This document shows positions 10,598 to 27,067 of a stretch of DNA of 39,579 nucleotides, piece by piece. Each line of letters starts with the position of its first letter. Position 1 is the stretch's first letter. The stretch is from Candidatus Sungiibacteriota bacterium. GTDB taxonomy: Bacteria > Patescibacteriota > Minisyncoccia > Sungbacterales > HO2-52-23. The stretch spans positions 1 through 39,579 of the forward strand of contig JACPMG010000021.1 of the NCBI GenBank assembly GCA_016186095.1, given 5' to 3'. A model generated the notes under the pieces. It did not search any database. It worked only from the letters and a program-made list of their open reading frames with translations, and was not told the DNA's origin. Made by a program: the position numbers and the translations under genes.

Positions 10598-10669
10598 TGG
10601 GCACTGGGGGGATCGAACCCTCGACCTACTGTGTGTAAAACAGTCGCTCTACCACTGAGCTAAGTGCCC
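10598..10669 (-). tRNA. tRNA-Val (anticodon TAC)
   Basis: 72-nt cloverleaf: acceptor GGGCACT/AGTGCCC, discriminator A, anticodon stem ACTGT/ACAGT with loop TTTACAC (TAC). CCA is not encoded. On its 5' side lies a structured repeat region beginning with a truncated tRNA 5' end. Confidence 0.95.
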
Positions 10670-10906
10670 TTGTATATCTAACGGGGTGAATAAACGAGTT
10701 GCTGTTTCGCCCCCTCGGCGAAACCCAGAGAAATTTTTTACGCTCACACGTGCTTCGCACGGCTCGCTAAATTTCTCGCGAGAGCAAAGAAATTTGCTCT
10801 CGCCCAAGCCGACGTATTCTCCGACGGTGCCGTCGGAGTCCCGGTCGGCTCCCCGACTGCTCAATTATAAATTTTATAACGTGCGTCGGGGCTGAGCTAA
10901 ACGCCC
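10670..10906 (-). repeat. Truncated tRNA 5' end plus structured repeats before tRNA-Val(TAC)
   Basis: Minus strand 10906-10892 reads GGGCGTTTAGCTCAG, like the tRNA-Val(TAC) 5' end (13 of 15), and stops in the D-loop. It is followed by CCCCGACGCAC (10891-10881), a hairpin closed by GTCGGGG, further hairpins such as GACTCCGACGGCACCGTCGGAG-type stems, and the 102-bp element at 10704-10805. The same AGCTCAG-CCCCGACGCAC junction occurs at 22990-23007. Confidence 0.75.
10704..10805 (+). repeat. 102-bp covarying structured element, copy 1
   Basis: Aligns without gaps to 11630-11731; I count 83 of 102 identical positions. It contains hairpin GTTTCGCC/GGCGAAAC, an outer pair GAGAAATTT/AAATTTCTC, and the stem GCGAGAGCAAA/TTTGCTCTCGC. 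In copy 2 that last stem is GCACGAGCAAA/TTTGCTCGTGC, so two base pairs changed on both arms together. Confidence 0.85.
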
Positions 10907-10972
10907 TTATTCATGCGCCCATGAAGGATCGAACTTCAGACCTTTCGCATGTCAAGCGAACGCTCTACTTCA

Positions 10973-11073
10973 CCCCGCCACTTGGGCATGTGGGCAATAC
11001 AGGGATCGAACCTGTGGCCTTCACAATGTCAATGTGACGCTCTACCACTGAGCTAATTGCCCAAGTGGCGGGG
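10973..11073. repeat. 16-bp perfect inverted repeats framing tRNA-Val(GAC)
   Basis: CCCCGCCACTTGGGCA at 10973-10988 and its exact reverse complement at 11058-11073; the second arm overlaps the first bases of the inner tRNA. Confidence 0.9.
10991..11062 (-). tRNA. tRNA-Val (anticodon GAC)
   Basis: 72-nt cloverleaf: acceptor GGGCAAT/ATTGCCC, discriminator A, D-arm GCTCAGTGGTAGAGC, anticodon stem TCACA/TGTGA with loop TTGACAT (GAC), T-arm ACAGG TTCGATC CCTGT. It lies in the D-loop of a second, degenerate tRNA-Val with the same anticodon. Confidence 0.95.
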
Positions 11074-11094
11074 CAAGCTGAGCTAACCGCGCTC

Positions 11095-11331
11095 TTAAAA
11101 TAAATGCTTTTTCAAAAATGCTCTACCGGATCCTGATTTCAGATATTTTTCGAAATTAAAAGCTGTATATTTATTTTTGAATGCAAAGTAGCAAATTAGT
11201 TCGACTGGCAGTCGGTCTTTTGCCGCGGGGACCCTCCCACTACTATGTCTTACTAGTCGCTCTTGGATATCCTCGGTACAGCCGGTATACGGCAGACCAT
11301 CAATACAATTCAACAAGTAAACATAATGCAT
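11095..11331 (-). CDS. GIY-YIG nuclease domain protein in the tRNA cluster, 78 aa
   Basis: Single-domain GIY-YIG protein: HYVYLL...PYTGCTED, the Arg in QERLVRH, the Glu in NFEKYLKSGSGRAFL. A GGAGAG Shine-Dalgarno precedes the ATG. On the same strand it lies between the 3' end of the split tRNA-Glu (11397) and the 5' end of the split tRNA-Val (11092); its TAA stop ends two bases from that tRNA start, so it is very likely co-transcribed with the tRNAs. The family includes homing endonucleases, but stand-alone proteins this small have no assigned role. Confidence 0.88.
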   Translation of the reverse strand: MHYVYLLNCIDGLPYTGCTEDIQERLVRHSSGRVPAAKDRLPVELICYFAFKNKYTAFNFEKYLKSGSGRAFLKKHLF

Positions 11332-11340
11332 AATGTGTCT

Positions 11341-11396
11341 CTCCTTCGCGATCTACTCGGCCTTCGGCCGTCGTAGCTCGCTACGGCGAGCGAAGA
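11341..11396. repeat. GC-rich palindromic repeat block
   Basis: Contains GGCCTTCGGCC (palindrome) and CGTAGCTCGCTACGGCGAGC-type stems; resembles the block near 2211-2250. It lies between the GIY-YIG gene and the split tRNA-Glu. Confidence 0.6.
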
Positions 11397-11475
11397 CGGC
11401 CCCACCGGGAATCGAACCCGCCTTCGCAGGCCGACACCCGCTTCGGCGGACGAAGGCCCGACTTGCCACATCTTG

Positions 11476-11611
11476 CCCCTCACTTAACTTCGATCATGCT
11501 TCGCCCCCAATGGGATTCGAACCCATGTACCGGGCTTGAAAAGCCCGTGTCCTGGGCCTCTAGACGATAGGGGCAGTATTTTATCTCATTTTTTCGAAGT
11601 TAAGTGAGGGG
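11476..11611. repeat. 18-bp perfect inverted repeats framing tRNA-Glu
   Basis: CCCCTCACTTAACTTCGA at 11476-11493 and its exact reverse complement at 11594-11611. The CCCTCACTTAAC core resembles the inverted repeat at 23237-23339. Confidence 0.9.
11502..11574 (-). tRNA. tRNA-Glu (anticodon TTC)
   Basis: 73-nt cloverleaf: acceptor GCCCCTA/TGGGGGC, discriminator G, anticodon stem CGGGC/GCCCG with loop TTTTCAA (TTC), T-arm ATGGG TTCGAAT CCCAT. Confidence 0.95.
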
Positions 11612-24468: not shown

Positions 24469-24890
24469 GTTATAGGGTATAAGTTATCAGTTTGTGGCTA
24501 ACTTTACGGATCTTAAAGTATGGCAAGCAGCACATAGATTTATTCTGGCCGTTTATCAAATAACCAGAAAGTTTCCAATCGATGAAAAGTATGCCTTGGT
24601 TCAGCAACTGCGACGTGCCGCTGTATCAGTGGCTGCGAATATCGCTGAGGGTAGCAAACGGCGCTCTCTGAAGGATAAGATCCATTTTTACAACATTTCA
24701 GACACTTCTTTAGAAGAGGTTAAGTATTACTTGATTTTGAGCCGTGATCTTTCCTACTATTCTATGAGCGAGTACGAAACTTTAATTAAAGACGCGGAGG
24801 AGGTGGGCCGAATGCTCTCAGGACTAATTGGCTCGCTTAGGAAGTAAAGTTTTCGGTTAGAACTTATACCTTAAATCTTATAACTTATAT
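24463..24890. repeat. AT-rich inverted repeats flanking the four-helix-bundle gene
   Basis: Left TATAAGTTATAGGGTATAAG (24463-24482) and right AACTTATACC...TTATAACTTATA (24861-24889) are inverted relative to each other. They frame the 117-aa gene between prfB and ftsE. Confidence 0.6.
24494..24847 (+). CDS. Four-helix-bundle protein (S23 / 23S rRNA intervening-sequence type)
   Basis: 117-aa cytosolic protein: FTDLKVWQAAHRFILAVY at the start, FPIDEKYALVQQLRRAAVSVAANIAEGS in the middle (family signature) and SLEEVKYYLILSRDL. Members were first found inside 23S rRNA intervening sequences and are also common as stand-alone genes, often near mobile DNA; function unknown. It starts with GTG without a visible Shine-Dalgarno. 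The gene is framed by AT-rich inverted repeats and interrupts the prfB-ftsEX order, which suggests insertion. Confidence 0.9.
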   Translation: MANFTDLKVWQAAHRFILAVYQITRKFPIDEKYALVQQLRRAAVSVAANIAEGSKRRSLKDKIHFYNISDTSLEEVKYYLILSRDLSYYSMSEYETLIKDAEEVGRMLSGLIGSLRK

Positions 24891-26551: not shown

Positions 26552-26558
26552 AAGTTAT

Positions 26559-26629
26559 TCCGGGGTCTGCTAATGGTAGGCATCGTGACTCTGAATCACG
26601 CAATCTTGGTTCGAATCCAAGCCCCGGAG
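26559..26629 (+). tRNA. tRNA-Gln (anticodon CTG)
   Basis: 71-nt cloverleaf: acceptor TCCGGGG/CCCCGGA, discriminator G, anticodon stem CGTGA/TCACG with loop CTCTGAA (CTG), T-arm CTTGG TTCGAAT CCAAG. The 3' end continues into the repeat GTCCTTCGACAAGCTCAGGA. Confidence 0.94.
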
Positions 26630-26667
26630 TCCTTCGACAAGCTCAGGACCCCCTAGTGAAAAATATT

Positions 26668-26940
26668 ATGTATTATGTCTATATTCTTCTTTGCGACCAG
26701 AAAACTTTTTATGTGGGAATGACGGATAATCTGGAAAGAAGATTATTGCAGCATCAAAGAAAAGAGTCCCCATATACCAAAAAGTTTTCTGAAGCTGTAG
26801 TTGTATACAAAGAGAATTTTACTAATTTTGTTAGTGCCGAAAATAGGGAACTGCAGCTGAAGAAATGGAGTATCGCAAAGAAGAAGGCTTTGATATCCGG
26901 TAATATAAATTTGTTACGTAGGTTAAGTAGGGGGTCCTGA
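26668..26940 (+). CDS. GIY-YIG nuclease domain protein, 90 aa
   Basis: Single-domain GIY-YIG protein: MYYVYILLCDQKTFYVGMTDN with Y-V-G as second motif, the Arg in LERRLLQH, the Glu in AENRELQLKKW. ATG 26668 is preferred over GTG 26656 because the family starts with M-Y-Y-V-Y. Its last codons and stop lie within the right inverted repeat of the unit. It lies between the intact tRNA-Gln and a shortened tRNA-Gln copy. Confidence 0.88.
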   Translation: MYYVYILLCDQKTFYVGMTDNLERRLLQHQRKESPYTKKFSEAVVVYKENFTNFVSAENRELQLKKWSIAKKKALISGNINLLRRLSRGS

Positions 26941-26955
26941 GATTGGCGATGATAG

Positions 26956-27006
26956 TCCGGGATGGGTGAAAATGGTGAGCTTGCCGAATCCATCCAAGTC
27001 CCGGAG
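26956..27006 (+). pseudogene. Shortened tRNA-Gln-like sequence, 51 nt
   Basis: Acceptor strands TCCGGGA (26956-26962) and TCCCGGA (26999-27005) plus G pair perfectly. A D-arm-like GGGTGAAAATGGTGAGC leads directly to a T-arm-like CCGAATCCATCC. The anticodon arm is missing. Confidence 0.6.
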
Positions 27007-27067
27007 TCCTTCGACAAGGCTACGGAATAGTAAATTATGCATTAGGATATAATAAATTCATCTTCTT

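Follow-up and report, generated by a model that had tools for sequence, protein, structure and literature searches.

A candidate mobile element of about 360 bp with a single GIY-YIG nuclease gene at the 3' end of a tRNA-Gln gene in Sungbacteria

In a Candidatus Sungiibacteriota genome, the 3' end of a tRNA-Gln gene is followed by a very short GIY-YIG gene set among repeats, and the locus raises the question of whether so small an arrangement constitutes a mobile element and, if so, how it could have entered a tRNA gene with only a nuclease of about 90 amino acids at its disposal. The window analyzed here is the whole stretch of 39,579 nucleotides, which forms part of a 680-kb assembly that is 92% complete. 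A preliminary description of the locus had proposed a small GIY-YIG element at the 3' end of tRNA-Gln with an att-like duplication, and both the PF01541 match of the gene product and the repeats agree with that outline. The features of the locus are as follows.

26558..26632, plus strand: intact tRNA-Gln(CTG), with T-loop TTCGAAT at 26610-26616 and base 73 at G26629 (ARAGORN; Rfam RF00005, 55.5 bits; sequence)
26615..26630, plus strand: duplicated tRNA 3' end, left copy ATCCAAGCCCCGGAGT (repeat search, duplication tests)
26629..26649, plus strand: left palindrome GTCC-TTCGACAAGCTCA-GGAC, its 5' arm starting at tRNA base 73 (kept in 20 related loci, covarying)
26642..26655, plus strand: left arm CTCAGGACCCCCTA of the 14-nt inverted repeat of the preliminary description (repeat search)
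26656..26940, plus strand: GIY-YIG nuclease ORF, either 94 aa (start GTG 26656) or 90 aa (start ATG 26668) (Pfam PF01541, alignments, AlphaFold2)
26928..26949, plus strand: inverted copy of the left palindrome, TAGGGGGTCCTGAGATTGGCGA, with the stop codon inside (repeat search, comparison of loci)
26957..26965, plus strand: segment CCGGGATGG, complement of the duplicated tRNA 3' end (fold, cognate-complementarity test)
26971..26994, plus strand: right hairpin AATGGTGAGCTTGCCGAATCCATC, family consensus AATGGTGAGCCTGTCGAACCATCC (locus comparison, fold)
26992..27007, plus strand: duplicated tRNA 3' end, right copy ATCCAAGTCCCGGAGT (repeat search, duplication tests)
27008..27030, plus strand: right flank CCTTCGACAAGGCTACGGAATAG, which stretches the direct repeat to 27 nt and occurs in degenerate form in the related locus L012 (alignment)

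The 19-bp direct repeat CCCGGAGTCCTTCGACAAG, first noticed for including the tRNA 3' end, is exact at 26623-26641 and 27000-27018, an event with a chance of the order of 1e-5 in about 1.8 kb by a simple estimate, and it reaches 27 nt with one mismatch (26/27) between 26615-26641 and 26992-27018. Only some 16-17 nt of this repeat duplicate the tRNA; the remaining TCCTTCGACAAG on the right is flanking DNA, and the alignment places TATCCTTCATTAAAGCTACGG at this position in the orthologous site of a same-order genome (G013, locus L012). The duplication therefore stands, whereas the 19-mer does not hold as its unit, which, judging from the comparison of loci, appears to be a stretch of about 16 nt running from the T-loop to base 73/74 (ATCCAAGCCCCGGAGT and ATCCAAGTCCCGGAGT in the window). 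The 14-nt inverted repeat CTCAGGACCCCCTA is likewise perfect (26642-26655 and 26928-26941), can be extended to 27 nt at 85% identity, and contains in its right arm the TGA stop codon of the gene (26938-26940), just as reported. Its arms, however, are the inner half of a longer palindrome starting on tRNA base 73, and not element ends in their own right. Their candidacy as transposon ends was rejected because CTCAGGACCCCCTA has no copies in the whole genome beyond these two, even at up to two mismatches (reversed-pattern control, 0), and because the unit conserved in relatives is the longer palindrome. The element is, in sum, about 360 bp long, carries one gene and is placed exactly at the tRNA-Gln 3' end. 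Of the two possible starts of that gene, ATG 26668 seems likelier than GTG 26656, to judge by the starts of the nearest homologues.

The product belongs to the GIY-YIG nuclease superfamily. Its reading frame matches PF01541 in Pfam (E=7.5e-13), the motif tyrosines Y9 and Y19, G21, the arginine R29 and the metal-binding glutamate E65 are invariant across 17 aligned homologues, and a confident AlphaFold2 model (mean pLDDT 91.6) comprises a single GIY-YIG domain. The nearest solved structures, by sequence and by fold, are the UPF0213 proteins BH0048 (PDB 1zg2, E 2e-10) and EF2693 (1ywl, E 1e-9), both "hypothetical" in their PDB entries, and Slx1 comes next. The protein has no PHROG match, its best phage matches, mostly from Rhizobium phages, lie at about 35% identity, and no relatives of the element were found in the viral contigs scanned. 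With regard to other enzymes, PF00589 yielded no match to a tyrosine integrase in the 680-kb assembly, with a positive control in 14/14 genomes, and no integrase ORF lies within the element, in keeping with the original suggestion that the GIY-YIG protein is the only candidate enzyme. As an integrase-type tRNA element, the locus displays the 3' duplication but not the tyrosine integrase, and this assignment was set aside. The same applies to membership in REP/RAYT or IS200/IS605, since the sole gene of the element is the GIY-YIG gene and a Y1 HUH transposase gene is absent from it, and to a group I intron with a GIY-YIG ORF, since no intron RNA was found in the window or at 20 homologue loci (E up to 0.5), where the search for structured RNA was likewise negative. 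A cmscan of the window at gathering thresholds returned tRNAs only.

A profile built from five close homologues and searched with protein alone retrieved 30 loci in named genomes, so that the DNA surrounding these genes constitutes an independent observation. Most of the loci belong to Sungbacteria, Liptonbacteria, Portnoybacteria, Yonathbacteria, Brennerbacteria, Gottesmanbacteria, Woesebacteria, WWE3, Andersenbacteria and Levybacteria, and one to the Planctomycetales; the weakest profile matches come from other phyla and lack the element architecture. The nearest relatives include a Sungbacteria locus (L071) with an element sequence identical to that of L012. An intact tRNA gene lies on the same strand 33-150 nt upstream in 16 of the 22 clade members scored; at L078 a tRNA-His-like gene was missed by ARAGORN, and L088 is truncated at the edge of its contig. 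The identification of tRNA-Gln as the target consequently holds for the window but not for the family, whose targets comprise tRNA-Gln(ctg), Gln(ttg), Asn, Asp, Lys(ctt), Lys(ttt), Glu, Ser(gct) and Ser(cga), with His added from visual inspection. Loci with a legible left side usually begin with the tRNA and continue with palindrome, ORF, inverted palindrome directly behind it, second hairpin AATGGTGAGCCTGTCGAACCATCC and tRNA 3' piece, and the left palindrome of the family reads GYCC-TTCGACAAGCTCA-GGRC, with tRNA base 73 as the first base of its stem. Palindromes and a tRNA-like right end are found without an intact left tRNA at L082, L084/L102, L089 and L103, and in-frame stops mark L081, L082 and L089 as apparently decayed copies.

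If the repeats derive from the target, the right-hand copy should resemble the tRNA of its own locus. When the 18 nt preceding the left palindrome were compared with the 200 nt following the ORF at 15 loci, the mean match was 15.3/18 within a locus, 11.5/18 for the same isotype at other loci and 10.2 for other isotypes, and the observed sum was reached in 0/20,000 permutations. At two of the 15 loci, L072 and L075, a degenerate or shortened right end accounts for a poor match, and at L085 the right copy matches an idiosyncratic local tRNA at 18/18 positions. An independent local-alignment test located the duplicate between the T-loop (ATCC) and base 73/74 in nearly every significant case in the clade. 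Furthermore, a duplicate of at least 14/16 accompanies 17 of the 41 tRNAs with a GIY-YIG gene no more than 250 nt downstream, versus 7 of the 76 without one. Across these comparisons the duplicate appears to follow the cognate tRNA and not other tRNAs.

The ends of the element also vary with the host tRNA. The left palindrome is paired in 95% of cells, versus 80% in shuffled controls and at most 44% when the partner is slid (16 distinct sequences), and substitutions occur in both of its arms, among them at bases 73 and 74, which come from the host: an A at base 73 pairs with an inner T, a G at base 73 with an inner C (or, as a wobble, T), and a T at base 74 goes with an inner A at two loci, that of the window among them. 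This covariation is good evidence but not decisive, given the small sample and the changes that related loci have in common. On the right, the segment preceding the hairpin complements the duplicated tRNA end with a mean of 5.38, versus 4.30 for non-cognate tRNAs (0/20,000 permutations); in the predicted folds this takes the form of CCGGGATGG/CCATCC..TCCCGG in the window and of CGACCGGA/TCCGGTCG at the tRNA-Asp of L081. It is conceivable, if on balance unlikely, that the GIY-YIG nuclease is the sole transposase of a target-adapting system without known relative, in which the target tRNA would contribute half of each terminal stem-loop (bases 73-75 at the left end, T-stem plus acceptor strand at the right end) and the element the other half, with guide arms rewritten for each tRNA.

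Whether the element moves can be approached through its distribution. On a maximum-likelihood tree of the protein, the deep branches of which are poorly resolved, 10 changes of tRNA type are counted across the 21 labelled rows, and the hosts, distant groups of Patescibacteria and a member of the Planctomycetales, are intermixed. The tRNA-Gln(ctg) gene that follows ftsX has no GIY-YIG gene in nine other genomes of the same family, in accordance with the expectation of empty sites in relatives, and in one further genome (G012, L047) the site carries a different GIY-YIG gene. L049, L055 and L058 have no GIY-YIG gene but keep a second tRNA 3' end at the tRNA-Gln site in a scar-like fashion. L234 likewise has a second tRNA 3' end without a GIY-YIG gene (TATCTAACGGGGTGAAAATCCAAGTCCCGCAG is an example among these four loci), and such sites are possible scars or non-autonomous copies. 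The empty sites are of family level; each species is represented by one genome, no second genome of the genus under study came to light, and no strain-level empty sites were found for G087 and G013, the genomes of the same genus or family being limited to these two and G016. In G013 (L063/L012), an orthologous gene occupies the ftsX-tRNA-Gln position and is accompanied by the tRNA duplication as well as by the inverted palindrome, and a gene at the same place without either repeat, named in the preliminary description as the observation that would contradict it, was not encountered there. The alignment of the window with L012 reveals flanking sequence in common beyond the duplication, suggesting that the window copy may be old, shared by descent or moved together with its flank, and not the product of a recent jump.

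These observations are best explained if the locus is a mobile element of minimal size, about 360 bp, with a GIY-YIG endonuclease of about 90 aa as its sole gene, inserted at the 3' end of tRNA-Gln with a target duplication of about 16 nt, and we consider this reading probable. The doubling of some 16 nt of target would leave the left tRNA whole and a tRNA fragment at the right end, and the presence of relatives at many tRNA genes, each with its last 16 bases duplicated, would apparently place the element among the smallest mobile elements that target tRNA genes. A possible mechanism is suggested by SegB, a freestanding GIY-YIG homing endonuclease of T-even phages which, in the available text of PMC13096335 (citing Brok-Volchanskaya et al.), cuts inside tRNA genes at the motif RAWTSGAAC. 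The reverse complement of this motif, GTTCSAWTY, corresponds to the T-loop of tRNAs and is matched by 13 of 16 clade tRNAs, a weak piece of evidence because most tRNAs have the motif. In the predicted folds, TTCGA is displayed in the loop of the left palindrome (TTCGACAAGCTCA) as well as in the T-arm of the tRNA (5-bp stem, loop TTCGAAT), and the nuclease may recognize a TTCGA stem-loop common to its own palindrome (CCC-TTCGACAAGCTCA-GGG) and the T-arm (GG-TTCGAAT-CC) of almost any tRNA gene. The tRNA gene would then be broken or nicked in the T-loop and near its 3' end or base 73, host repair would set the element between the two copies of the duplicated 16 nt, and selection would keep those copies in which a whole tRNA has been restored. 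The cutting by the GIY-YIG protein, its T-loop site, its strandedness and the repair route are putative steps that we infer. In agreement with a cut there, the T-loop is the exact point of truncation of a tRNA-Gln that neighbors another GIY-YIG gene in G016. A point against the scheme is that the intact left tRNA of the element retains the presumed cut motif and would be open to recutting.

The tRNA-type changes bear on an explanation by strict homing, in which a SegB-like enzyme would act on the same tRNA allele only and spread through double-strand break repair and homologous recombination with co-conversion, with no ectopic insertion or target duplication and with the tRNA 3' copy carried by the element itself. 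SegB provides a precedent for such behavior (PMC13096335, available text), the window and L012 copies sit at the same tRNA-Gln with flanks in common, and several neighbors on the tree have the same tRNA type. Yet the 10 type changes, together with right copies that fit idiosyncratic local tRNAs, such as the 18/18 match of L085, indicate that ectopic insertion is needed at least sometimes, and we place strict homing somewhat short of an even chance. A different emphasis, on the palindromes, leads to an immobile nuclease gene of the Ssn type lying among its own palindromic target repeats and serving as a regulator or filter of DNA uptake, with its proximity to tRNAs reflecting where palindromes land. 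The small single-domain GIY-YIG protein and the inverted palindromes on both sides fit this, as do the ATTCCC-N8/9-GGGAAT palindromes that accompany a gene 45% identical to the query at L027 and, possibly, the dispersal of the palindrome TTCGACAAGCTCAGG, which has three exact copies and five at up to two mismatches in the genome (control, 0) and is present in 40 of 93 relatives. Palindrome counts, however, show no clear correlation with the presence of the clade, and the cognate tRNA duplication and the target changes are left unaccounted for, which makes this explanation a rather unlikely one.

Two further explanations deprive the GIY-YIG protein of any role in placing the element. Duplication of the 3' end starting at the T-loop is typical of tRNA att sites, and on these general grounds the repeats could be attL and attR, generated in trans by a recombinase of the tyrosine or another type, with the GIY-YIG gene as cargo. 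This we judge very unlikely, as no PF00589 protein was detected in the genome and as palindrome, right hairpin and duplication travel with the GIY-YIG clade across many hosts and many tRNAs, whereas integrases are as a rule confined to a single tRNA. Lastly, the repeats are short and GIY-YIG genes are common (82/93 genomes), which might invite an appeal to chance repeats near an ordinary GIY-YIG gene or to degenerate remnants of tRNAs or group I introns. All the permutation tests, the same-strand polarity of the tRNAs and the lack of an intron at the 20 homologue loci speak against this extremely improbable reading, and the chance interpretation is refuted statistically. The preferred reading remains that of a tRNA-targeting mobile element.

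The association of small GIY-YIG genes with tRNAs extends beyond this clade. Among the matches listed, 58 of 138 small GIY-YIG genes of relatives lie no more than 250 nt from a tRNA on the same strand, versus three opposite-strand tRNAs upstream and none downstream, a fraction which may not hold for all GIY-YIG genes because the list consists of those most similar to the query. Half of those genes, again among the matches listed, have the intact tRNA downstream, and many of them have, ahead of the ORF, a tRNA 5' half that starts at base 1 and runs in the direction of the anticodon loop; the corresponding test of 5'-half duplication gave 0/10,000 permutations, with 17 of 28 above the 99th percentile. 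The 5' half often holds a palindrome such as CCTGCCTGCCGGCAGGCAGG in its D-loop, and the whole looks like a second class of elements using the anticodon loop. Loci of this kind include L149, L155, L166 and L184 at tRNA-Leu(caa), L142 and L180 at tRNA-Ala, L161 at tRNA-Tyr, L207 at tRNA-Arg and L208 at tRNA-Cys, and in the majority of them the 5' half extends to the anticodon loop. Double insertions are seen at L081 and at L015 (same locus as L079), where one GIY-YIG gene precedes an intact tRNA and has a 5' half behind it, while another follows the 3' end of a tRNA and is associated with a 3' duplication.

Related arrangements also occur within the genome under study. At L003 (G000:C32:46799), a GIY-YIG gene immediately 3' of tRNA-Asn precedes a degenerate tRNA-Asn 3' end into whose T-loop a palindrome is inserted. 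In the window, a third GIY-YIG gene (10598-11575, minus strand) has tRNA-Glu on one side and two copies of tRNA-Val(gac) on the other; one tRNA-Val copy is degenerate (29.8 bits in Rfam), and more tRNA-like fragments occur nearby. A gene for a 23S rRNA intervening-sequence protein (24494-24847; PF05635, E 5.7e-38) immediately precedes the genes for an ABC-type ATPase and FtsX. Solo copies of TTCGACAAGCTCAGG appear in frame in genes named by eye as dnaK-like (L007, where the copy reads PSTSSGQ), gatB-like (L009) and glycosyltransferase-like (L010). Elsewhere, the inverted palindromes of L027, which belongs to a genome of the same family (G011), resemble the dRS3/NTS repeats of Neisseria, and at L016 (G063) a GIY-YIG domain lies in frame within a restriction/helicase-subunit-like frame of 888 codons, with the same palindrome type on both sides.

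An element of this kind may explain the persistence and spread of small, non-intron GIY-YIG genes in the minimal genomes of the Patescibacteria, and it links three subjects hitherto considered separately, namely palindrome-flanked small GIY-YIG nucleases, freestanding homing enzymes that cut tRNA genes and the use of tRNA genes as insertion sites. If mobile, it would be among the smallest autonomous elements known to us, with one gene of about 90 codons, and would represent integration at a tRNA site without an integrase. The combination of a simple target rule, from T-loop to base 73, with a conserved enzyme makes the mechanism testable in vitro.

Several known systems share part of this organization. 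The Ssn family comprises site-specific single-stranded GIY-YIG nucleases of Neisseria and others, and the element resembles it in the very small GIY-YIG protein, in a gene flanked by palindromes and possibly in the dispersal of such palindromes in the genome; to our knowledge, its members neither target tRNA genes nor duplicate their targets. Inverted repeats of at least 12 nt surround 28 of 134 GIY-YIG genes among the matches listed, versus 0.5% of mismatched pairs. REP/RAYT and IS200/IS605 elements are similar in the imperfect palindromes that surround a single gene and also occur solo, and in end sequences that resemble guides in pairing with the target, but they rely on a Y1 transposase, an unrelated nuclease family, and we know of no target duplication in IS200/IS605. 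Islands and satellites with tyrosine integrases share the intact tRNA and the 3' end duplicated at the far side, whereas the present element, in which no integrase gene was found, measures about 360 bp and occurs at many tRNA isotypes within one protein clade. GIY-YIG-encoding insertions without group I or II introns are carried by CPR rRNA genes and, in the available text, are placed by their authors outside homing (PMC11270868); they share with the element a GIY-YIG gene in a conserved RNA gene, yet the target is rRNA and not tRNA, and no duplication is described in that text. SegB is close in that its GIY-YIG gene lies beside tRNA genes of many isotypes and outside introns, just as the gene of the element adjoins a tRNA and lies outside introns and inteins, and differs in being phage-encoded and in that the available text reports no palindromes or tRNA 3' duplication (PMC13096335). 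In a limited literature search, neither tRNA 3' duplication nor target-matched ends were found described for SegB, Ssn or the CPR rRNA insertions. Although neither SegB nor Ssn gives the structure of the element, the best reading, by analogy, is that it would work like the freestanding homing endonuclease SegB, with a palindrome-flanked gene that resembles those of the Ssn family.
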